The notes: generated by a model not told the origin, from the sequence alone. 64,000 bases of DNA from Fodinibius sp. Rm-B-1B1-1 (GCF_038594945.1 NZ_JBCFYD010000002.1:1240001-1304000); one strand, 5' to 3'. Shown: positions 42,153 to 53,183, counted from the first letter of the stretch. Numbers and translations: made by a program.

Positions 42153-45100
42153 TTATGAGCAACCAGTGGTTGATCCACAAGTAATACACTTCTGACAGGT
42201 TCCATTACGGACCATTGTCATACTACCGCACTCAGGGCAAGAATCACCAGTATAACCCAGTTCCTTGGCCTTTTCGTAGTCACTCTGGTAGCTGTCATCA
42301 TCAGCTGCAGCTTGTGCCTGTTTCGTCGGTTGCGATTCAACTACTGTTTCAGGTTGATCAGCACTATCATCCGGCTTATTTGCCGGATTCTTTGAACGAT
42401 CAGAACGCTGTTTTTCTTCTTCGGATGGTCGCATTTTGCGCGACATGATATCCTCTGCAGGAACATGCGCCAAATCATCTCGACCGAGATACGTAACAGC
42501 AAGCTCACGGAAAATATAATCAATCACCGAAGTCGTCATTTTCACATGCGGACTTCCGCTAACGGTTCCACTGGGCTCAAACTTGGTAAATGTAAAGGCA
42601 TCAACGAACTCTTCGAGCGGTACACCGTGCTGCAAGCCAAGTGAAATTGCAATGGCAAAACAGTTCGTGAGGCTACGGAACGCAGCTCCTTCACGGTGCA
42701 TATCCAAGAAGATTTCACCAAGTTGGCCGTTTTCGTATTCACCTGTTCGCAAGTATACACTCTGTCCGCCAATCTTCACCTTTTGAGTATAACCGTTTCG
42801 ACGACTTGGAAGGCGTTTGCGATCAGCTACGTATTTGTGGACAATACGCTCAGCCGTTTCCACAACTTTGTCTTGCTGTGCCTTCGTTTCCTCGTCCAGA
42901 TCTTCTTCATCCAGATCTTCAAACACATCACTCAGGCTATTCAATGGTTGACTCAACTTAGAGCCATCACGATACAACGCATTCGCCTTCAGCATCAGCT
43001 CCCAGGAATCCATATAAGCATCCTTAAAGTCCTCAACTGTTGCCTCATTAGGCAAGTTAATAGTCTTAGAAATGGCACCCGATACGAACGGTTGCGCGGC
43101 TGCCATCATCCGAATATGTCCCTTTGGCTTAATGTAGCGCGTACCAATACGTCCACAACGATTTGCACAGTCAAATACTGGCAAATGCTCGTCTTTTAGG
43201 TGCGGAGCACCCTCTACTGTCATCGTACCACATACGTAATCATTAGCCTCCTGTATCTCCTCTTTGGAAAACCCAAGATGCTTAAGGACATCAAACTGTG
43301 GATTACCCAACTGTTCATCAGAAATGTCGAGTACTTCCTTGCAGAAATCTTCGCCAAGGGTCCACTGGTTGAAGGCAAACTTGACTTCAAAACTACTTGG
43401 CAGCGCTTCTTCAATGGCTTCAAGCTGTTTGTCACCAAAACCTTTTTCGCGGAGACTTTCCTCGTTGATATGTGGGCAGCCGTCCAACGAACCATGTCCT
43501 TTAGCGTAATTAATAATTTCCTCACGTTCCTTGGGACTATATCCAAGATTTTGCAGCGCTTTGGGCACACATTGGTTAATAATCTTAAAGTGTCCACCGC
43601 CAGCAAGTTTCTTAAACTTCACCAGAGCAAAATCTGGTTCAATTCCCGTGGTATCACAATCCATCACCAAACCAATGGTACCGGTTGGTGCAATCACCGT
43701 AACCTGCGCATTACGATAGCCATGCTTCTCACCCATCTTTACGGCTTCATCAGAATCTTTTCGCGCCGCCTTCAACAAGTTATCGGGACATTCATTGGCA
43801 TCAATGCCCATCGGCTTCACGGTGAGATCTTCATACTCTTCGGGATCTGCATTATAGGCCGCACGTTTGTGGTTACGGACTACTTTCAGCATCGGCTCTT
43901 TATTTGCCTCAAACCGCTCAAACGTTCCAAGATCCTCAGCCATCTCGGCACTGGTCTTGTACGCATTCATGTGGATAATACTCATCAATCCACCGGCAAT
44001 AGCACATCCCTCATCGCTGTCATACGGAACGCCCTGTACCATCAGTGCAGCACCCAGGTTGGCAAAGCCAAGTCCAAGCGTACGGTACTTGTAGGAAAGG
44101 TCGGCAATTTCTTTGGATGGGAACTGAGCCATCAATACTGATATTTCCAGCACCACCGTCCAAATTCGCGACGCATTTCGTAGCGATTCCACATCAAATT
44201 CCTGGCACTCATCCGTCTTGAAATACTTCATCAAGTTGAGTGACGCAAGATTGCAGGCTGTATTATCTAAGAACATATACTCTGAGCACGGATTACTACC
44301 GTTAATCGGTCCGTCGTTGGGACATGTATGCCACTCATTAATTGTATCGTGATACTGTGCTCCCGGATCGGCGCAAGCCCATGCGGCATTAGCAATATCA
44401 TCCCAAAGTTCACGGGCTGGCATCGACTTGCACGGCTTGGGCTCACGTCCTTCCTCGGCCGCTTTCCGCTTTTCTGTTCTCCAGTACAGATCCCATTCGC
44501 CGTCTTCTTTTACGGCCTTCATAAACTTATTGGGGATACGAACAGAGTTATTCGAATTTTGTCCACTTACCGTACGATAGGCCTCAGAATCCCAATCCGT
44601 ATCATAGGTTTCAAATTCCAGATCAGTAAACCCTTGCTCTGCCAGCTGAACCACACGCTCTATATAGTTGAGTGGAACCTGATCTTGCTTGGCTTCTTTT
44701 ATTGCTCGGCCAAGCTCTTTGTTCTTAACAGGATCACGACTGACGGCACCGTTGAAAGTACGGCCATCAATCTCAACCGGCTTGTTACACAACTTAATAA
44801 TTTTCTTGAGATGTTTCTCCAGTACCTTCGATCCGGTAACCATAGAAGCGACTTTTCGCTCCTCTTTCACCTTCCAATTGATATACTCCTCAATATCAGG
44901 ATGGTCCAGATCAAGCGTAACCATCTTGGCAGCACGTCGTGTGGTACCACCAGACTTAATAGCGCCGGCGGCTTTATCACCAATTTTGAGGAAACTCATC
45001 AATCCGGAAGAACGTCCGCCACCACTCAATGGCTCACCTTCACCGCGGACCTTCGAAAAGTTACTACCCGTGCCGGATCCATATTTAAAGAGGCGTGCTT

Positions 45101-45770
45101 CACGAACCCACAAATCCATAATACCGCCCTCGTTTACGAGGTTGTCATCAATACTCTGGATAAAGCAAGCATGCGGCTGTGGATGCGAATACGCATCTTC
45201 GGACTTGGTCAATTCGCCTGTTTTGCCATCAACATAATAGTGTCCTTGGGATGGTCCGTTAATTCCATAGGCCCAATGTAAACCGGTATTAAACCACTGG
45301 GGACTATTAGGTGCAGCCATCTGATTGGCAAGCATATAACGGAGCTCATCATAAAATACTTTTGCAGCCTCTTCAGAATCGAAATAATCGTGTTTCCAAC
45401 CCCAATACGTCCAACAACCTGCCAGACGATGGAATACCTGGCGACTGTCGTACTCTCCGCCATAAAAATCATCCTCGTCAATACCTTCTTTTTTCATGGC
45501 TTTTTCGTCAGCCTCTGAACGCTGAAGCCATTCCGGCACCCCTTTTTCTTTTACCTTTTTCGTAATCTGAGGCACACCGGCTTTACGGAAATACTTTTGA
45601 GCAATTACATCGGTTGATACCTGCGACCAACTTTCAGGTACAATTAGCTCGTCCATCTTAAAAACAATCGAACCATCGGGATTTTTAATTTCCGACTTTC
45701 GACTGACAAAGTTCATATCTCCGTATGGGCTGTCCCACTTCTCTTGTGTATAAAAACGTGAAAATTTCAT
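42153..45770 (-). CDS. nrdJ: Adenosylcobalamin-dependent class II ribonucleotide reductase
   Basis: This 1205-aa enzyme makes deoxyribonucleotides, using a B12-generated thiyl radical. The early region has [22 protein letters not shown]; the barrel has [20 protein letters not shown] and, later, [19 protein letters not shown]. Glycyl-radical and diiron ligand features of class III and I enzymes are absent. The C-terminus has a Cys-rich tail (CPECGS...CQKCITCG), typical of long NrdJ forms, which may bind zinc and re-reduce the active site. It is a single leftward gene next to the B12-uptake genes. A GGAG lies about 12 nt before the ATG. Confidence 0.96.
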
Positions 45771-45901: not shown

Positions 45902-45997
45902 TTTTCCACAAAAAGCCAGAGTTATCCACATTGAAAACGGGTTGGGAGAATATTTTTTCGAAAAATCCAGCCGTATTTTAAAACGGGTTGTGGATAA
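45902..45997. promoter_or_regulatory. DnaA-box cluster upstream of nrdJ
   Basis: The 391-nt gap between nrdJ and the propeller gene contains two perfect DnaA boxes in opposite orientation: TTATCCACA at 45922-45930 and its complement TGTGGATAA at 45989-45997. A one-mismatch box, TTTTCCACA, lies at 45902-45910. Between them, AAAACGGGTTG occurs twice (45934-45944 and 45980-45990), around a 12-bp palindrome TTTTTCGAAAAA (45954-45965). The cluster lies 130-230 nt upstream of the nrdJ start. DnaA controls nrdAB in E. coli, so a similar role is plausible. A replication origin is less likely with so few boxes. Confidence 0.6.
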
Positions 45998-46069: not shown

Positions 46070-46116
46070 CAAAATAAAAAAACACAGTACTCTTTTGATG
46101 ATAAAGAGCACTGTGT
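46070..46116 (-). terminator. Terminator of the BtuB/BtuG-like unit
   Basis: On the minus strand the stem ACACAGT-x-CTCTTT / AAAGAG-x-ACTGTGT (46082-46095 with 46103-46116, one mismatch) has a 7-nt loop and is followed by a T-rich tract. It lies 46 nt after the stop of the propeller gene. Confidence 0.9.
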
Positions 46117-46161
46117 CTGATATAATTTAAAATCCAATCTTAAATTAAAATTGAACTCTCC

Positions 46162-47241
46162 TTAATTTTCGTTGACAAAATGAAATCCATTGGGCGCTAT
46201 ACCTGCTGCAAACGAATCTACAGCTGCTCCTTCTAAATCATAAAGCAATGCTTGGCCCGGCTGGCTATATCCATTACTCTGCCCAACATAAATGCGCTGT
46301 TCAGGACCCAAATAACCAATGGCATTAAATGCTCGATCAATCAATTTATCATCCGAAAGAGTAACATCGTTCATGTCAATCATTGAAATGCCATTATTGA
46401 GCAAATATCCCCGCGCATCTTCAATGTTAAGTGCTAACCGGTATTTATATCCCGATGAAGCAACGATATCATCCGATTCTATAAAGTTTAGGATTTGCCC
46501 GGTTTGTCCATCCAAAAGGTAAATACTGCCAGGGACATCTTCAGTAGATTCATCATAGGAAACCCGTCCATTACAGACTATCCAAATGCGGTCTTCATTG
46601 TCAACAACCATCTGGCTGGGACCAGTTCCCACTTCGATGGTCTGTTCTACCGAATTGGATTCTGCATCAATGATCGAAATCGTATTTCCATAACCGGAAC
46701 CATTGTTGGTAACATAGATCTGATCACCAACACGAACAATGTCACGCGGAGAGTTACCCACACCTATACGCTGGCCAGTCTCTTCCATGGATGACAAATC
46801 AAGAACAGAAATACTGTCAATATCAGCTTGATAGTCAAGCGTAGTAGCAAAAGCAGTTTCATCATCAATAACTTCAATGGCCGTTGGAGAAACCGACATT
46901 TCAATGGTGCCAAGGCTTTCCATACTTTCTTTGTCAACGACCTCAATTTTATTGGCCGAATTTATGACCAAATACATACGATCACCATCTACATGGGCAG
47001 ATTGAATGATACCTGCAAGCGGACGGTTGTTGGCATCTTCAAATGCATTTTTAAGGCTACTTTTATCAGCAGGATCGTAACTGGTAACTGAACCGTTGCC
47101 ATCACTAAAATTCCCCTCGTTGGTCACATACACCGAGGTGGTTTCCAGTGGATCTGGTTCGGGAGATGTACTGTTGTCATCACCGCAGGATACGGTGAAA
47201 ATTGTAATTGCAAATAAATAAAGTAGATAACGTTTAAACAT
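46162..47241 (-). CDS. BtuG-like beta-propeller surface lipoprotein
   Basis: This 359-aa lipoprotein has a signal peptide with lipobox FTVSC, Cys19, followed by an Asp-rich GDDNSTSPEPDP spacer. It folds as a YncE-type beta propeller: VYVTNEG, MYLVINSANKIEVVD, SVLDLSS, IYVTNNG..NTISIIDA, IWIVCNG, IYLLDG and IYVGQSNG mark successive blades. In Bacteroides, BtuG is a propeller lipoprotein on the cell surface that binds cobalamin very tightly and caps BtuB. Here the gene follows the TonB receptor gene by 9 nt behind a cobalamin riboswitch, so the BtuG role is a strong inference. Confidence 0.82.
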   Translation of the reverse strand: MFKRYLLYLFAITIFTVSCGDDNSTSPEPDPLETTSVYVTNEGNFSDGNGSVTSYDPADKSSLKNAFEDANNRPLAGIIQSAHVDGDRMYLVINSANKIEVVDKESMESLGTIEMSVSPTAIEVIDDETAFATTLDYQADIDSISVLDLSSMEETGQRIGVGNSPRDIVRVGDQIYVTNNGSGYGNTISIIDAESNSVEQTIEVGTGPSQMVVDNEDRIWIVCNGRVSYDESTEDVPGSIYLLDGQTGQILNFIESDDIVASSGYKYRLALNIEDARGYLLNNGISMIDMNDVTLSDDKLIDRAFNAIGYLGPEQRIYVGQSNGYSQPGQALLYDLEGAAVDSFAAGIAPNGFHFVNEN

Positions 47242-47250
47242 ACGAGTTAA

Positions 47251-49182
47251 TTAGAATTGATATGTTGCTGTGAGTGAAAAAGTAAAATTTCGCTGTGGCA
47301 TTGGATACCACTGTACGACTTCATAATCCTGGTCAAAAATATTTTTTACACTGGAGCGGGCCTCTATTAGTAATCCAAAAAATTCTTGTTGAAACTGGAG
47401 AGTAGCATCCACTACCTGGTATGGATCAAGTGAGGCACTCAGCTCTTCGGTATCAGTAGTATATCGGCGACCCATCCAACGGTATTGCAGCAAGCCGCTC
47501 AACTTATTTCTTTGTAAACGCAGAGAAGCATTATATTTCCATTTGGGCACGTATCGCATCTGATGTCCAACGGCGTTATCACCCGAAAAACGCGGCTCTG
47601 TTATCTCTGTGTTTGTTAAGCTGATAGATTGCCGCAACTGAAGCTGGATGCCTGGTCCAAAATGAATACTGTTTTCCAATTTCCCTTCAATGCCCTGGGT
47701 AGTAATTTGATCAATGTTCAGCGGGGAGTATCGTCCATTATTATCCGGATACCATCGGATACCATGATCTATCTGACTATAAAAGCCGGTTACTTCTAAC
47801 GACGAAAAAGTAGCCCTATAAGGAGTCCATACTACGCCGGCTTCTCCACTGTTACTTCGCTCGGCATCCAAGTCTGCATTCCCTCCACTACCCCAATAAA
47901 GAGCATTAAATGTTGGGGGATTAAAATCTTTGCTTAGTTGCCCCCTCAGAAATAGTTTATTGTTTAGAACCTCGTAATTTAATCCAAGCGAGGGGCTCAG
48001 TACGGTTCCAAAATCATTATATGCATCAACACGCAGAGCAGGATAGATGCGAAAACGATCCTTGAAAAGAACCACTTCCGGATTGAAAAGCACACTTACC
48101 TGACGGCGACTATGGTCCTCATCATAATTAGTACTCTCACTACCGGTCAGCGAACCGCTTAGTTCTCCCTTCAACAAAATAGATTCATTAAACGGAGTAG
48201 AGCCATCGGCACTAACCATCCATCGCCGATACGAACTATAGCTTTCAGTATTTATATCGGAATCAAAATAATTGAGCTCTACTCTGTCAACATAATTTTT
48301 CACTGTAATATCGGTCTCTCCCCACTCCCGCTGATAGGTACTTAACCAGCGCAGTGAACGATCTTCCTGCCGAGCCTGGGTATTGTTTAGAATAGTACCG
48401 GGAATTTGATTGTCGCTGTCTGCAAACCAAATCGTGGATTCCCAAGAGTCGTATTCCGATTCATGAGCCACAGTCGCCATAACCTGCTCTTGCTCACTCC
48501 TATTATGATCACGCCGTTCCTCCCGATTATAGGCTCGATTGTAATACTGATAATCATTTTCGGCGTGATCTACCCGACTACGAACCGAAAAATTCCACCC
48601 CTTGGATTGGTATTGTCCCTTCATCGACGTCTGCCACTGTCCATATGAGCCAATCCCCTGTTGAAAAGACGCTCTGTTACCGCTTTCCCAATCCGATGAA
48701 AGATACAATGCCCCTGCTAAACTACCGCCACCAAAGGCCGTGCTGGGTGTACCGGAACTCACCTGGATATTTGAAAACATATCAGCTGATAATAATGATA
48801 AATCGGACTGCCCGAGCATCACATTGTTGATAGGAATACCCTCCCAAAGCACCTGAATTTGTTCGGACGAAAGTCCTCGCTGCGAAGCATTCGAAAACGA
48901 ACCCGGGCCGTTCTTTTTAATAAAAAGAGAAGACTCAGACGCTAACAGTTCGCCAATATTCTGGTTTTCAAACAGACTGATGAGAGTAGAATCAATAAAG
49001 GTAATACTGGTAGGCTGATGGTTCAATGGCTGTTGAATGCGGGTGGCAGTGACCGTAATCTCATCAAATGACAGTGTATCAGCCACATAGGTTTGTTGAG
49101 CGTAAGATACACTGCTAAAAAAAGCCATAAATACTGTAAGATACAGTACTCTATGGCAAGCCATAGAATTTGTAGTAGTCAT
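47251..49182 (-). CDS. btuB: TonB-dependent cobalamin receptor (BtuB-like)
   Basis: This 643-aa outer-membrane barrel has a signal peptide (LTVFMAFFSSVSYAQ). A TonB box region, FDEITVTATR, is followed by a plug domain with NIGELLASESSLFIKKNGPGSFSNASQRGLS. The beta-strand-rich barrel ends in aromatic LTATYQF. Its length is close to that of E. coli BtuB (about 600). A cobalamin riboswitch lies directly upstream and the BtuG-like lipoprotein gene is immediately downstream, so B12 transport is well supported. Confidence 0.92.
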   Translation of the reverse strand: MTTTNSMACHRVLYLTVFMAFFSSVSYAQQTYVADTLSFDEITVTATRIQQPLNHQPTSITFIDSTLISLFENQNIGELLASESSLFIKKNGPGSFSNASQRGLSSEQIQVLWEGIPINNVMLGQSDLSLLSADMFSNIQVSSGTPSTAFGGGSLAGALYLSSDWESGNRASFQQGIGSYGQWQTSMKGQYQSKGWNFSVRSRVDHAENDYQYYNRAYNREERRDHNRSEQEQVMATVAHESEYDSWESTIWFADSDNQIPGTILNNTQARQEDRSLRWLSTYQREWGETDITVKNYVDRVELNYFDSDINTESYSSYRRWMVSADGSTPFNESILLKGELSGSLTGSESTNYDEDHSRRQVSVLFNPEVVLFKDRFRIYPALRVDAYNDFGTVLSPSLGLNYEVLNNKLFLRGQLSKDFNPPTFNALYWGSGGNADLDAERSNSGEAGVVWTPYRATFSSLEVTGFYSQIDHGIRWYPDNNGRYSPLNIDQITTQGIEGKLENSIHFGPGIQLQLRQSISLTNTEITEPRFSGDNAVGHQMRYVPKWKYNASLRLQRNKLSGLLQYRWMGRRYTTDTEELSASLDPYQVVDATLQFQQEFFGLLIEARSSVKNIFDQDYEVVQWYPMPQRNFTFSLTATYQF

Positions 49183-49224
49183 TATAATCTTCTTAAAACT
49201 TTAACTCCCGAAAGTTTCTCGAAA

Positions 49225-49425
49225 TAGAATTGATTGGCAGGTCTCCTGGCTTTTCCAGTTGTCTAACCTTCCCATTCCTAATAGACGGAATAGTGGCATA
49301 AAAGATTTGAGACAACATTTAAATGGAATCACAGTTGCGGGTACAGCTTCCGATTTTCCCGAATACTCGGGAGCACGAAATTCCCTTTTCACCCCATTTT
49401 CATGGGGAACCGATCACTATTTCAA
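49225..49425 (-). promoter_or_regulatory. Cobalamin riboswitch upstream of btuB
   Basis: The minus strand carries the B12 box GCCAGGAGACCTGCC (49236-49250). Further 5' are the conserved core pieces GCTGTACCCGCAACTGTGA, GCCACT and GGGAAGG. These are the class I cobalamin aptamer elements in the right order. The box lies about 55 nt before the btuB ATG, so expression should fall when B12 binds. Ends are approximate. Confidence 0.95.
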
Positions 49426-49471
49426 AGAGCGTTATAAAAGTATGGGCTTTCGGTTTAAAATAAAAACCGTT

Positions 49472-50500
49472 TTATGATAATTTTTGTCGCAGTATATTTA
49501 ACAACTCTTTTATAGAACTACAGGTAATGTCCCAACTTCCATTTGTGAGTTCCCACTGAAATTCATTTTGGGAAGATATAATATTAATCTTCAATTTTGT
49601 GCCATTCGATTTTTTCACTTGATAGCCTTCCCGCTCCAAGGCGCGCCGCGTCCAAAATACCCCAACCGTATCCCCCGTAAGATAAATCGGTTTCTTTGCA
49701 GGCTGATGCAACTGAAACGATCCCGTACTGCGATCAAAGTCAAAACTATCACGTTCAAAAACCGATTCAAAAGTACCCTCAAGTACCAGATCTTCAGGTG
49801 TTCCCGTAATAACTTCTCCCTGTCTGTTGATAAGCCATAACGTATCAGCAGCTTTTAACGCCAGATCCAACTCATGCGTTGAAAGTAGAATACCTTTATT
49901 TGTATCATGTGCTAACCTCCGAAGCAAACGGATAATTTCGACACGATTAGGCAGATCCAAGTGTGCTGTAGGTTCATCTAAAAGCACAGCTGGCGTATCT
50001 TGTGCCAAAGCACGGGCAATCATTACCTTTTGGCGTTCCCCATCACTTAGATGCAATACATCGCGACCGACAAATTCTTCAATACCTGCAGATGCAATCG
50101 CCCATTCTACAATTTCTTCATCTTTTTTATTTAGCGATCCAAACCAACCGGTGTAGGGAGATCTTCCAAAAGCCACCAACTCGTAGACACTGATATTTCC
50201 AATGGTAATACGGTCGGTCAATACGGTACTTACTTTCCGGGCGACGTGTTTATTGGCATACTGGTTTAGCTGGTGCCCTTCTAAAATAACATCCCCATTA
50301 AGCGGACGATGCAACCCTGAAAGCGTTCTTATGAGCGTAGATTTGCCCGATCCATTTGGACCCAACAGGCAAATAATTTCCCCTCTTTGCATAGCCACAT
50401 TTATCCGTGATGCTACAACCGTAGCCAACTTCCGACGTCCTTTGGCCGGAAAACCAATATCCAGATCTTGGGTCGATATAATAGGCTGACTATTACTCAT
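49472..50500 (-). CDS. btuD: Cobalamin ABC importer ATPase (BtuD-like) with C-terminal extension
   Basis: This 342-aa FecE/BtuD-type ATPase has Walker A LLGPNGSGKST, signature LSDGERQKV, Walker B AVLLDEPTAHLD and switch LLSTHELD. The ATPase part ends near residue 255. Residues 260-342 are an extra domain (PIYLTGDTVGVFWTRRALEREGY...), absent from E. coli BtuD, which is about 250 aa. The ATG overlaps the btuC stop by one base. Confidence 0.9.
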   Translation of the reverse strand: MSNSQPIISTQDLDIGFPAKGRRKLATVVASRINVAMQRGEIICLLGPNGSGKSTLIRTLSGLHRPLNGDVILEGHQLNQYANKHVARKVSTVLTDRITIGNISVYELVAFGRSPYTGWFGSLNKKDEEIVEWAIASAGIEEFVGRDVLHLSDGERQKVMIARALAQDTPAVLLDEPTAHLDLPNRVEIIRLLRRLAHDTNKGILLSTHELDLALKAADTLWLINRQGEVITGTPEDLVLEGTFESVFERDSFDFDRSTGSFQLHQPAKKPIYLTGDTVGVFWTRRALEREGYQVKKSNGTKLKINIISSQNEFQWELTNGSWDITCSSIKELLNILRQKLS

Positions 50501-51576
50501 TAAAAAGAGGCCTGTAGGTTTTTACGCTGTATAATAACCCAAATCACAACTGGGGAACCCACCATTGAAGTAACCGCACTAATCGGTAGTGTAGTTGTTG
50601 ATCCAGGGACCTGAGCAATAATATCACACCCCAGCAACAGGATAGCTCCCATTAGAAGCGTGGCGGGAATAAGTACCCGGTGATCATTAGTGCCCATAAG
50701 TGAACGAGTAAGGTGAGGCACAGCAATTCCCACAAAACCAATGGGACCACAAAAAGCGGTTATACCACCGGCCAACAAGCTGGTGCTCACAATAATCCAA
50801 ATACGAGATCCCGTTACTGATAATCCCATGCTGCGGGCATAATTTTCGCCCAGCAGCAAGCCATTCAATGGTTTAGATAAAGCCATGGCAATCCCACCGC
50901 CAATCAGGGAGACAACAGCCAATATCCAGAGTTGATCGAGCGGCACGCCTCCCAAACTGCCAAAGGTCCAAATCAAGTAATCCTGTATTTGCTCCGGACG
51001 ACTAAAGTATTGCCAGATACTCACCAAGGCAATCGTCAGGTTACCGATCATAAGTCCAATAATTAGGAGAGTTACATTATCACGAACTTTGATAGAGATC
51101 AGCAAAATTAACAGCAACACTGCTGCTGAACCCAAACTGGCTGCAATAACAATGACCCAACTGCCCATGGCCGACAATTGCTGTATGGCAAAAATGCTGG
51201 TGATCGTTCCTCCTGCCAACATCACAATCGCTACCCCTAAGCTTGCTCCAGCCGTAATGCCTAAGACCGAGGGACCAGCCAGCGGGTTGCGAAAAAGCGT
51301 CTGCATCAACAGCCCCCCAACCGAAAGCGCGCAACCGGCAAAAATTGCAGTTACAGCCCGGGGAATGCGAATATTTATAATAATTTTTTGCCAGGCATCA
51401 GCTGTAGACTCTCCTCCCAACAAAATATGCACTATATCTTTTACCGGAATATCAACCGATCCCAAAGCGAGGTTGACGAGAAATAATCCCGTCAAAGCCA
51501 CCAATAATAGCACAAAATAAAGTGGCTTAATCCCCGTCTTATGCTGTGGCGTTATATCAGCGGTACGGTTCATCAA
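50500..51576 (-). CDS. btuC: Cobalamin ABC importer permease (BtuC-like)
   Basis: This 358-aa FecCD-family permease has about ten membrane helices. Family motifs include FRNPLAGPSVLGITAGASLG, GENYARSMGLSV and FVGIAVPHLTRSLMGTNDHR, the last being the coupling region for the ATPase. It overlaps the btuF-like gene by 4 nt at its start and btuD by one base at its end. Iron-siderophore permeases share this family; the cobalamin riboswitch upstream decides for B12. Confidence 0.92.
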   Translation of the reverse strand: MMNRTADITPQHKTGIKPLYFVLLLVALTGLFLVNLALGSVDIPVKDIVHILLGGESTADAWQKIIINIRIPRAVTAIFAGCALSVGGLLMQTLFRNPLAGPSVLGITAGASLGVAIVMLAGGTITSIFAIQQLSAMGSWVIVIAASLGSAAVLLLILLISIKVRDNVTLLIIGLMIGNLTIALVSIWQYFSRPEQIQDYLIWTFGSLGGVPLDQLWILAVVSLIGGGIAMALSKPLNGLLLGENYARSMGLSVTGSRIWIIVSTSLLAGGITAFCGPIGFVGIAVPHLTRSLMGTNDHRVLIPATLLMGAILLLGCDIIAQVPGSTTTLPISAVTSMVGSPVVIWVIIQRKNLQASF

Positions 51577-52766
51577 TCAATTTTTTGATAGTAATGAAGC
51601 TTGTGGTCGGGCAATAATTGTGGATGAAAAATCTTGATCAAATCGGCCAACACAATTTCCGGATGCACGACGCCCGACTCCCAAAAATCATTGCCACCCG
51701 ACAGACTCATTCTCCTGTTATTATTATAAATTTCTCCCGTTTTAAACGCTTTAAAATCCTTGAAGCGAGAATCCTTTGCCAGAACATCTTCTTTCGATTC
51801 TGCTGCCCCGGGATGGATCCAGATATCGGCTTCTAACCCAATTTCATAAACTACCTCAAAACTCTTTCGCAACCCTCCCGTTTCATCCGAGTCGTACCAT
51901 GGGTAATCAGCTCCTGCATCCCGTAAAAACTGCGCCGTAAAACTCTGTCCCCCCGAAACAAACCAAGCCCCTTTATATGGCATATTGTTGATTACCATCG
52001 GCTTTTCCCCAACGCCATCAACCTTTGATTGAAGGCGATTATATTTATCAGCAACCGCATTAAATTTTTTATTCGTCAGCGTCTCTTTATTCAACAAGGC
52101 CGCCAATACTTTCACCCACTCAGCCTTACCCAGTGGGGTCGTTTCCAACCACTCAGAGTTTACCATCACATTGATATCTGAATCCATCAGCATCCGAATA
52201 TTATCAAAATCAGAAGACTGTCCACCCGATACCATAAGCAAATCGGGCCCCATAGCCAGCACCGCCTCTTTGTTGAGTTCCCCCTGCGGCAAACTGGCAA
52301 TATCGCCAGACCCGATCCCCTTCCGAATATCTTCATTATAAACATAGTCTGCCCCAGCCATTCCCGTAATCACATCAACAGCATCAAGCATTTCAACCAA
52401 GGCAATATGTGTTGTAGACGTTGCCAACAAGCTTTTTATGGGGATGGGTATTTCAGTCGTATTTTCAACCTCAACCTCATCAACGATCTCTCGTGGCACC
52501 AACGAGTAACGAAGCGTATCCACTCGGTCCTGAAACGGTTTTAAAATTTCCAGCAGCTTATGATCATCCTGATAGGTAATGCGAAATCCTTCTGCATAAT
52601 CGGCATGCACCGAATCAGAAAACTGGACTGAAAGGTCTTTGGCATCAGATTGAGAATCAGCATCTTTATTATGATTCGATTGACAGCCTCCCAAAAATGA
52701 AAACAGCACGAACCATCCCAATAAAAATGCCGCTGCACAGAGATAAAAAAATCGTTTATTAATCAT
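51573..52766 (-). CDS. btuF: Cobalamin-binding lipoprotein of the ABC importer (BtuF-like)
   Basis: This protein of about 397 aa is a substrate-binding lipoprotein. The start at 52766 (MINKRFF) gives a lipobox LGGC with Cys28; the in-frame ATG at 52805 would sit against the riboswitch core and add 13 unlikely residues. The binding-protein fold of the FepB/BtuF type is seen in HIALVEMLDAVDVITGMAGADY, GPDLLMVSGGQSSDFDN and GEKPMVINNMPYKGAWFVSGGQSF. It captures cobalamin in the periplasm and delivers it to the BtuCD pair encoded downstream. Confidence 0.85.
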   Translation of the reverse strand: MINKRFFYLCAAAFLLGWFVLFSFLGGCQSNHNKDADSQSDAKDLSVQFSDSVHADYAEGFRITYQDDHKLLEILKPFQDRVDTLRYSLVPREIVDEVEVENTTEIPIPIKSLLATSTTHIALVEMLDAVDVITGMAGADYVYNEDIRKGIGSGDIASLPQGELNKEAVLAMGPDLLMVSGGQSSDFDNIRMLMDSDINVMVNSEWLETTPLGKAEWVKVLAALLNKETLTNKKFNAVADKYNRLQSKVDGVGEKPMVINNMPYKGAWFVSGGQSFTAQFLRDAGADYPWYDSDETGGLRKSFEVVYEIGLEADIWIHPGAAESKEDVLAKDSRFKDFKAFKTGEIYNNNRRMSLSGGNDFWESGVVHPEIVLADLIKIFHPQLLPDHKLHYYQKID

Positions 52767-52799
52767 GGATTGAGCTTTTCTCCCGAAAGCTTTTCCCGT

Positions 52800-53015
52800 C
52801 ATCAATACCGGCAGGTCTTCTGGCTTACTCCACTTTTGGCAACCTTCCCGTTCCGTCCGAAAGCCTTCCGGGCGGAACAGTGGTTTTGAAGGGTCAAAAG
52901 CTGTTGGAGCTTACAGCAGCGGGGACTGCTCCGGATTTTTCTCCCGAATGAGCAGGAAAAGCACCGGATTCCCGTTTTAACTGCACCATCATGAATGATG
53001 CAGACCTGATATTGA
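52800..53015 (-). promoter_or_regulatory. Cobalamin riboswitch upstream of btuF-btuC-btuD
   Basis: The minus strand shows B12 box AAGCCAGAAGACCTGCC (52810-52826), with GGGAATCCGGTG, GTCCCCGCTGCTGTAA, CCACTG and GGGAAGG further 5'. This is a clear cobalamin aptamer. It lies 40-250 nt before the btuF start, so the importer operon should be repressed by B12 independently of the btuB unit. A GCAG-type hairpin at 52981-53003 lies at the 5' side. Ends are approximate. Confidence 0.95.
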
Positions 53016-53183
53016 ATCAGTAAGTAAAATTTTTGCGATGTCTGATAATAACGGTATTAGCAATCAGAAGCCAATTTTGAAATTCCTGAAATTACGCCTC
53101 AAATATTTAAAGCATGTAATATCGCTATTATTTTTGCGTGACTCTGCTATTTTAAGATTTAACCACTCACAAATTATGTTGTC

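Follow-up and report, generated by a model that had tools for sequence, protein, structure and literature searches.

Capture of vitamin B12 by BtuG was earlier attributed to gut Bacteroides, where it competes with host intrinsic factor, and the survey concerned covered human gut genomes only. The 64,000-nucleotide stretch of Fodinibius sp. Rm-B-1B1-1 (GCF_038594945.1) analysed here, hereafter the window, contains a btuB gene followed by a gene for a propeller lipoprotein, which raises the question of whether a BtuBG system exists in this lineage and how it relates to the B12-dependent reductase encoded beside it. We find that the BtuBG and BtuFCD genes of the window form a genuine uptake locus, which is a known type of system in a new setting.

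The uptake locus and its neighbour nrdJ

The features of the locus, in window coordinates, are as follows.

42153-45770, minus strand: nrdJ, class II adenosylcobalamin-dependent ribonucleotide reductase (NF005736, 1996.5 bits, cut-off 1737)
45902-45997, no strand assigned: DnaA-box-like cluster upstream of nrdJ (TTATCCACA, and TGTGGATAA-11 nt-TGTGGAAAA)
46080-46118, minus strand: terminator-like hairpin between btuG and nrdJ, 16 pairs and a T tract
46162-47241, minus strand: btuG, seven-bladed propeller lipoprotein, putative lid (8bmx_D, E 3.2e-25; AF2 fold; Foldseek, VIA-align)
47251-49182, minus strand: btuB, TonB-dependent outer-membrane B12 transporter (PF07715 plug; PDB 8bmx_C, 8p98_A)
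47728-47730, minus strand: codon of BtuB Tyr485, aligned by phmmer with Tyr538 of BtuB3 (8p98_A)
49219-49429, minus strand: cobalamin riboswitch 2, leader of btuB-btuG (RF00174, 96.8 bits, E 6.7e-23)
49472-50500, minus strand: btuD, ATPase (PF00005, ABC_tran, 1.8e-29)
50500-51576, minus strand: btuC, permease (PF01032, FecCD, 1.6e-75)
51573-52766, minus strand: btuF, substrate-binding lipoprotein, lipobox LGGC, ATG start (PF01497, Peripla_BP_2, 5e-20)
52793-53025, minus strand: cobalamin riboswitch 1, leader of btuF-btuC-btuD (RF00174, 97.4 bits, E 4.6e-23)

The two cobalamin riboswitches of the first-pass annotation are borne out as full-length RF00174 matches at about three times the Rfam gathering score, and its coordinates and gene order (btuF-btuC-btuD, then btuB and the propeller gene 9 nt later) were correct. 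It had also divided the genes into two leftward units. Their content and order hold, but their separateness is not proven, since riboswitch 2 starts only 43 nt past btuD and read-through from the first unit is possible.

Neighbouring genes of the btuFCD group overlap or abut, and Peripla_BP_2, FecCD and ABC_tran proteins occur together in one operon behind a B12 riboswitch. None of the three reached an NCBIfam equivalog cut-off (the best NCBIfam match of BtuC is PRK03784 BtuC, under that model's cut-off), and the B12 specificity of the importer therefore rests on context. For btuF, the ATG at 52766, from which the protein reads MINKRFFYLC..., is the more likely start, because the listed TTG at 52805 falls within the match of riboswitch 1. 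Past its ABC domain, BtuD extends by about 85 aa at the C terminus (49472-49730), a feature kept in genus relatives. Among the fetched loci, btuFCD adjoins btuBG only in the genus of the window.

The class II reductase that the first-pass annotation placed just beyond btuG is identified by an NF005736 score well above that model's cut-off. It is a neighbour and a user of B12 that stands outside the transporter. In most of the family's loci nrdJ comes after btuG, as it does in two other families of the order, so that the arrangement btuB-btuG-nrdJ recurs across three families. The description of the uptake genes as wired beside the main B12 consumer is thus upheld as regards conserved adjacency; as regards wiring it is weakened by the strong terminator-like hairpin between btuG and nrdJ and by the lack of a riboswitch of nrdJ's own. 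A single B12-coupled operon, in which the riboswitch before btuB also governs the class II reductase, would fit an adjacency and orientation conserved in three families and a gap in the window of 391 bp. We nevertheless consider it improbable: the hairpin separates the two genes, nrdJ lies 4.6-5.3 kb away in two genus relatives, a DnaA-box-like cluster of its own precedes nrdJ in every locus checked, and it would make little sense to repress a B12-using enzyme at times of ample B12. The hairpin and the displaced nrdJ of the two relatives are the grounds on which we rejected a place for NrdJ inside the riboswitch operon.

In the cluster before nrdJ, the pair TGTGGATAA-11 nt-TGTGGAAAA occurs at exactly this spacing in 10 of 10 family loci. 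A replication origin was considered for the cluster but is not supported by the cumulative GC skew, which falls steadily there and levels off only close to the window's right end.

BtuB and its propeller partner

Compared with solved structures, the window BtuB, with its TonB plug and barrel, is closest to Bacteroides BtuB2 and BtuB3; its best PDB matches are 8bmx_C (E 2e-45), BtuB3 8p98_A (1e-42) and 8p97_A. Against TIGR01779 it scores 108.3 bits, where the cut-off is 599.7, and it also falls far under the cut-off of PRK10641 (both NCBIfam). By sequence it is a BtuB of the Bacteroides type and not an enterobacterial-type equivalog. In BtuB3G3, Tyr538 is reported as the sole BtuB residue that contacts B12 (PMC10404256). 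The corresponding position, Tyr485, is aromatic in 13 of 15 aligned BtuBs. Loop 8, which is essential in Bacteroides BtuB, aligns with Bacteroides without gaps and shows the motif W-x-P-x3-G-x-Y-S-P-x-N, and W477, P479 and N489 are invariant among the 15 proteins. This motif may in part be general to TonB-dependent receptors, and the case for BtuB identity is therefore made by the overall match and Tyr485 in combination.

The propeller protein carries the lipobox TVSC, with Cys19 followed by GDDN (MFKRYLLYLFAITIFTVSC-GDDN, read from the sequence), and the lipid-attachment cysteine is kept in genus relatives. That this protein fits BtuG, as the first-pass annotation had proposed, is supported jointly by sequence, predicted fold and a riboswitch-btuB locus. 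Its best PDB sequence matches are Bacteroides BtuG chains, headed by 8bmx_D, with 1l0q at 9e-15. The AF2 model (pLDDT 91) is a seven-bladed beta-propeller for which Foldseek rows 1-16 are all BtuG chains (E 3e-26 to 9e-20), followed by 1l0q at 4e-15, about five orders of magnitude weaker than the last BtuG row; E. coli YncE stands at 8e-10. The first 11 VIA-align rows are likewise all BtuG (Z 37.1-39.7), and the next kind of protein reaches 31.9.

The BtuG2 loop Asn54-Thr64 is reported to grip B12 like pliers (PMC10404256). Its residues N54, G56, F58 and N62 correspond to N41, G43, F45 and N49 of the window protein, which are conserved in 26-28 of 28 homologues and rank among the most conserved residues of the propeller family. 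In the sequence alignment, three pocket residues of BtuG2 are not kept (W194 to S182, Y239 to V227 and Y316 to N306, the last adjoined by F305) and two are still aromatic (W272 to Y265 and Y335 to Y325). With the pocket aromatics only partly kept, affinity or ligand preference may differ from BtuG2.

Taken with the importer, these features very probably make the locus a complete lipoprotein-lidded vitamin B12 uptake system, in which a pedal-bin BtuBG feeds BtuFCD under riboswitch repression. BtuG would be exported as a lipoprotein and seated as a lid on the TonB-dependent BtuB. By analogy with the Bacteroides proteins, it would capture a corrinoid outside the cell, whereupon the lid would close, extracellular loop 8 of BtuB would push the vitamin into the barrel, and import would be driven by TonB. 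BtuF and BtuCD would then take the vitamin across the inner membrane, and an adenosyltransferase would convert it to AdoCbl for NrdJ. When B12 is sufficient, the cobalamin riboswitches would repress both transport units. The scheme is built on gene content, riboswitches, homology, predicted fold and conserved synteny, and B12 binding, lid motion and the direction of regulation are inferred from these.

The surface location of BtuG is likewise a prediction, and the propeller could instead be a lipoprotein of the periplasmic leaflet that acts below BtuB and not as an outside lid. The definition of the lipoprotein export signal comes from Bacteroidetes sensu stricto, and the window lineage shows only the acidic GDDN after the cysteine, which leaves room for such a placement. 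However, GDDN resembles the post-cysteine starts of SusD-like proteins of the same genome, which are acidic after the lipobox cysteine (CEDD..., CNVVDIDD...); the same propeller in relatives bears a type IX secretion system (T9SS) sorting signal, a route to the outside; and Bacteroides BtuG is surface exposed (PMC6143338). We therefore judge a periplasmic propeller unlikely and keep the outside lid as the preferred reading.

Distribution of BtuG and its anchors among relatives

BtuG homologues were present in 189 of 394 sampled genomes of the wider phylum, so that the window represents an extension of range and not an isolated case. A cobalamin riboswitch was found in all 20 of the relatives' loci fetched first (L036-L055). 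In 19 of these loci btuB sits immediately before btuG, and in the remaining one, L052, the riboswitch itself does; the arrangement is therefore not due to chance. Within the family, 36 genomes encode a BtuB at E <= 1e-20 and 33 of these also encode BtuG, and the family genomes without a similar BtuB lack BtuG too. The proposal of a BtuBG pair outside Bacteroides is sustained by BtuG, a Bacteroides-type BtuB and cobalamin riboswitches in a lineage without the marker of de novo B12 synthesis (see below).

That the propeller is YncE-like or otherwise unrelated and merely lies beside btuB is highly improbable, for although it matches the generic propeller-repeat models TIGR02276 and TIGR03866 and, weakly, YncE (NCBIfam), and DUF5074 has no assigned function in Pfam, BtuG ranks far before YncE by sequence and by fold (PDB sequence, Foldseek, VIA-align), a ranking on which a generic YncE-like propeller was rejected. 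In addition, nearly all relatives share the riboswitch-btuB-btuG linkage, and family genomes that lack this BtuB lack the propeller too.

Two side observations concern absences. Four close relatives within the genus (g1; G081, G151, G360 and G397) have neither BtuG nor a similar BtuB, and the uptake locus is therefore patchy within the genus. Two further genomes of the window's family (G262 and G235) have a riboswitch and a btuB that stands alone, BtuG being absent, and in L140 nrdJ still follows the lidless gene. The two lidless, riboswitch-controlled btuB genes are as follows.

L139, 7204-9114: lidless btuB
L140, 7582-9603: lidless btuB

A different anchor was found elsewhere in the class. 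In 42 genomes, among 245 class genomes searched, one match spans both the BtuG propeller and a T9SS sorting domain. In many relatives BtuG is about 440-460 aa long and has a T9SS type A sorting domain (TIGR04183, Por_Secre_tail) at its C-terminal end, and the lipid-attachment cysteine is absent from those read. TIGR04183 was detected in 20 of the 22 proteins of set A3, which consists of 20 sorting-domain proteins and 2 lipoproteins. The propeller of this form matches BtuG3 at 5.5e-36, better than the window protein does, and BtuG chains fill rows 1-16 for its predicted fold. The T9SS form occurs next to btuB at L020, L021, L025-L027, L031, L032, L044, L045, L049-L051, L054 and L055, and further at L060-L084, L086, L088, L089 and L091-L108. 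In 25 of 25 T9SS-form loci btuB lies directly upstream of btuG, and each of the 23 for which upstream DNA was available has a cobalamin riboswitch. The PorU sortase exceeded its cut-off in 11 of 11 T9SS-form genomes tested and in none of the three window-genus genomes tested (G000, G344 and G227). The window genus shows an apparent loss of T9SS, with weak sorting-domain matches left, and the sampled sister genera have PorU. A lipoprotein BtuG is nonetheless retained in some PorU-bearing genomes.

A tree of 53 propellers requires three changes of anchor type (bootstrap range 3-3), and two of the changes are forced by well supported branches, although the direction of change is not settled because the tree lacks a root and has several long branches at phylum level. 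The tree indicates that the propeller was conserved while its anchor switched between the lipid and T9SS types at least twice. In much of the class, the BtuG lid is likely not to be a lipoprotein: a protein with an ordinary signal peptide and a C-terminal T9SS type A sorting domain would reach the outside through the type IX secretion system and then be anchored or released by the sortase, with the window genus being lipid-anchored. The published pedal-bin model places an N-terminal lipid tether on the hinge side; a T9SS-sorted lid, if true, would function without need for that tether. We found no description of a T9SS-sorted BtuG in the open-licence literature, and this candidate form of the lid is the novel part of our reading, well supported at the level of sequence.

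A B12 economy with three riboswitches

The host genome (3.4 Mb, 97.7% complete) is probably that of a salt-loving environmental bacterium. NCBI taxonomy places Fodinibius in Balneolota, a phylum separate from Bacteroidota; a GTDB-based grouping assigns the host genome to a phylum that includes many genomes with BtuG. De novo B12 synthesis, a check for which the first-pass annotation had called, was assessed through CbiC/CobH, the marker common to both B12 pathways, which is absent from the host genome and was detected in control genomes. PF07685 gave two weak matches only, in open frames whose lengths, 210 and 234 aa, fall short of a cobyrinic or cobyric acid synthase. MetE is also absent, yet MetH, methylmalonyl-CoA mutases (MCM), a PduO-type adenosyltransferase and NrdJ are present, and the host must therefore probably import B12. 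A published survey found Balneolaceae without B12 synthesis and, within that family, btuC, btuD and btuF only in Fodinibius/Aliifodinibius (PMC9909488).

Exactly three cobalamin riboswitches reach the cut-off in the whole host genome, and the third, which lies outside the uptake locus, is the strongest (129.8 bits).

C1:448125-448316 of the same genome (L001; L005:125-316): third cobalamin riboswitch (RF00174)
L004:14460-17989: nrdB and nrdA, directly downstream of the third riboswitch

The third riboswitch would thus govern nrdBA, the B12-independent class I reductase, so that low B12 would raise both uptake and the backup reductase. On the simplest reading, low B12 switches the two on jointly, a direction that we infer. 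Two riboswitches would then serve uptake and one the backup class I reductase, a three-riboswitch B12 economy. According to Borovok 2006, as cited in PMC4991794, Streptomyces nrdABS/nrdJ likewise has a B12 riboswitch before a B12-independent class Ia reductase with NrdJ co-resident, whereas the window host has nrdB-nrdA, in a Balneolaceae-type genome that also holds a lidded uptake system.

Among known uptake systems, the window locus resembles BtuB2G2 and BtuB3G3 of Bacteroides thetaiotaomicron (PMC6143338, PMC10404256) in having a BtuB beside a seven-bladed BtuG lipoprotein and a cobalamin riboswitch, and, as predicted for the window proteins, in the fold, the B12-gripping loop and the loop-8 contact position of BtuB. 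It differs in that the window BtuG, structurally aligned with BtuG2, is about 24% identical to it, with pocket residues partly different, and in that the operon shows no BtuH-like gene, is linked to nrdJ and belongs to an environmental lineage. With E. coli BtuB and BtuFCD it shares a TonB-dependent BtuB, a periplasmic binding protein and an ABC importer, but E. coli has no BtuG lid (PMC6143338), and the window BtuB is far from the TIGR01779 and PRK10641 models.

The intact, riboswitch-controlled and conserved presence of lidded uptake in an environmental lineage of the Balneolales type shows that this design is no adaptation to the gut. One family holds lipid-anchored lids, lids predicted to be T9SS-sorted and lidless riboswitch-controlled BtuBs, and these three lid states offer a natural comparison for the roles of the lid and its tether.
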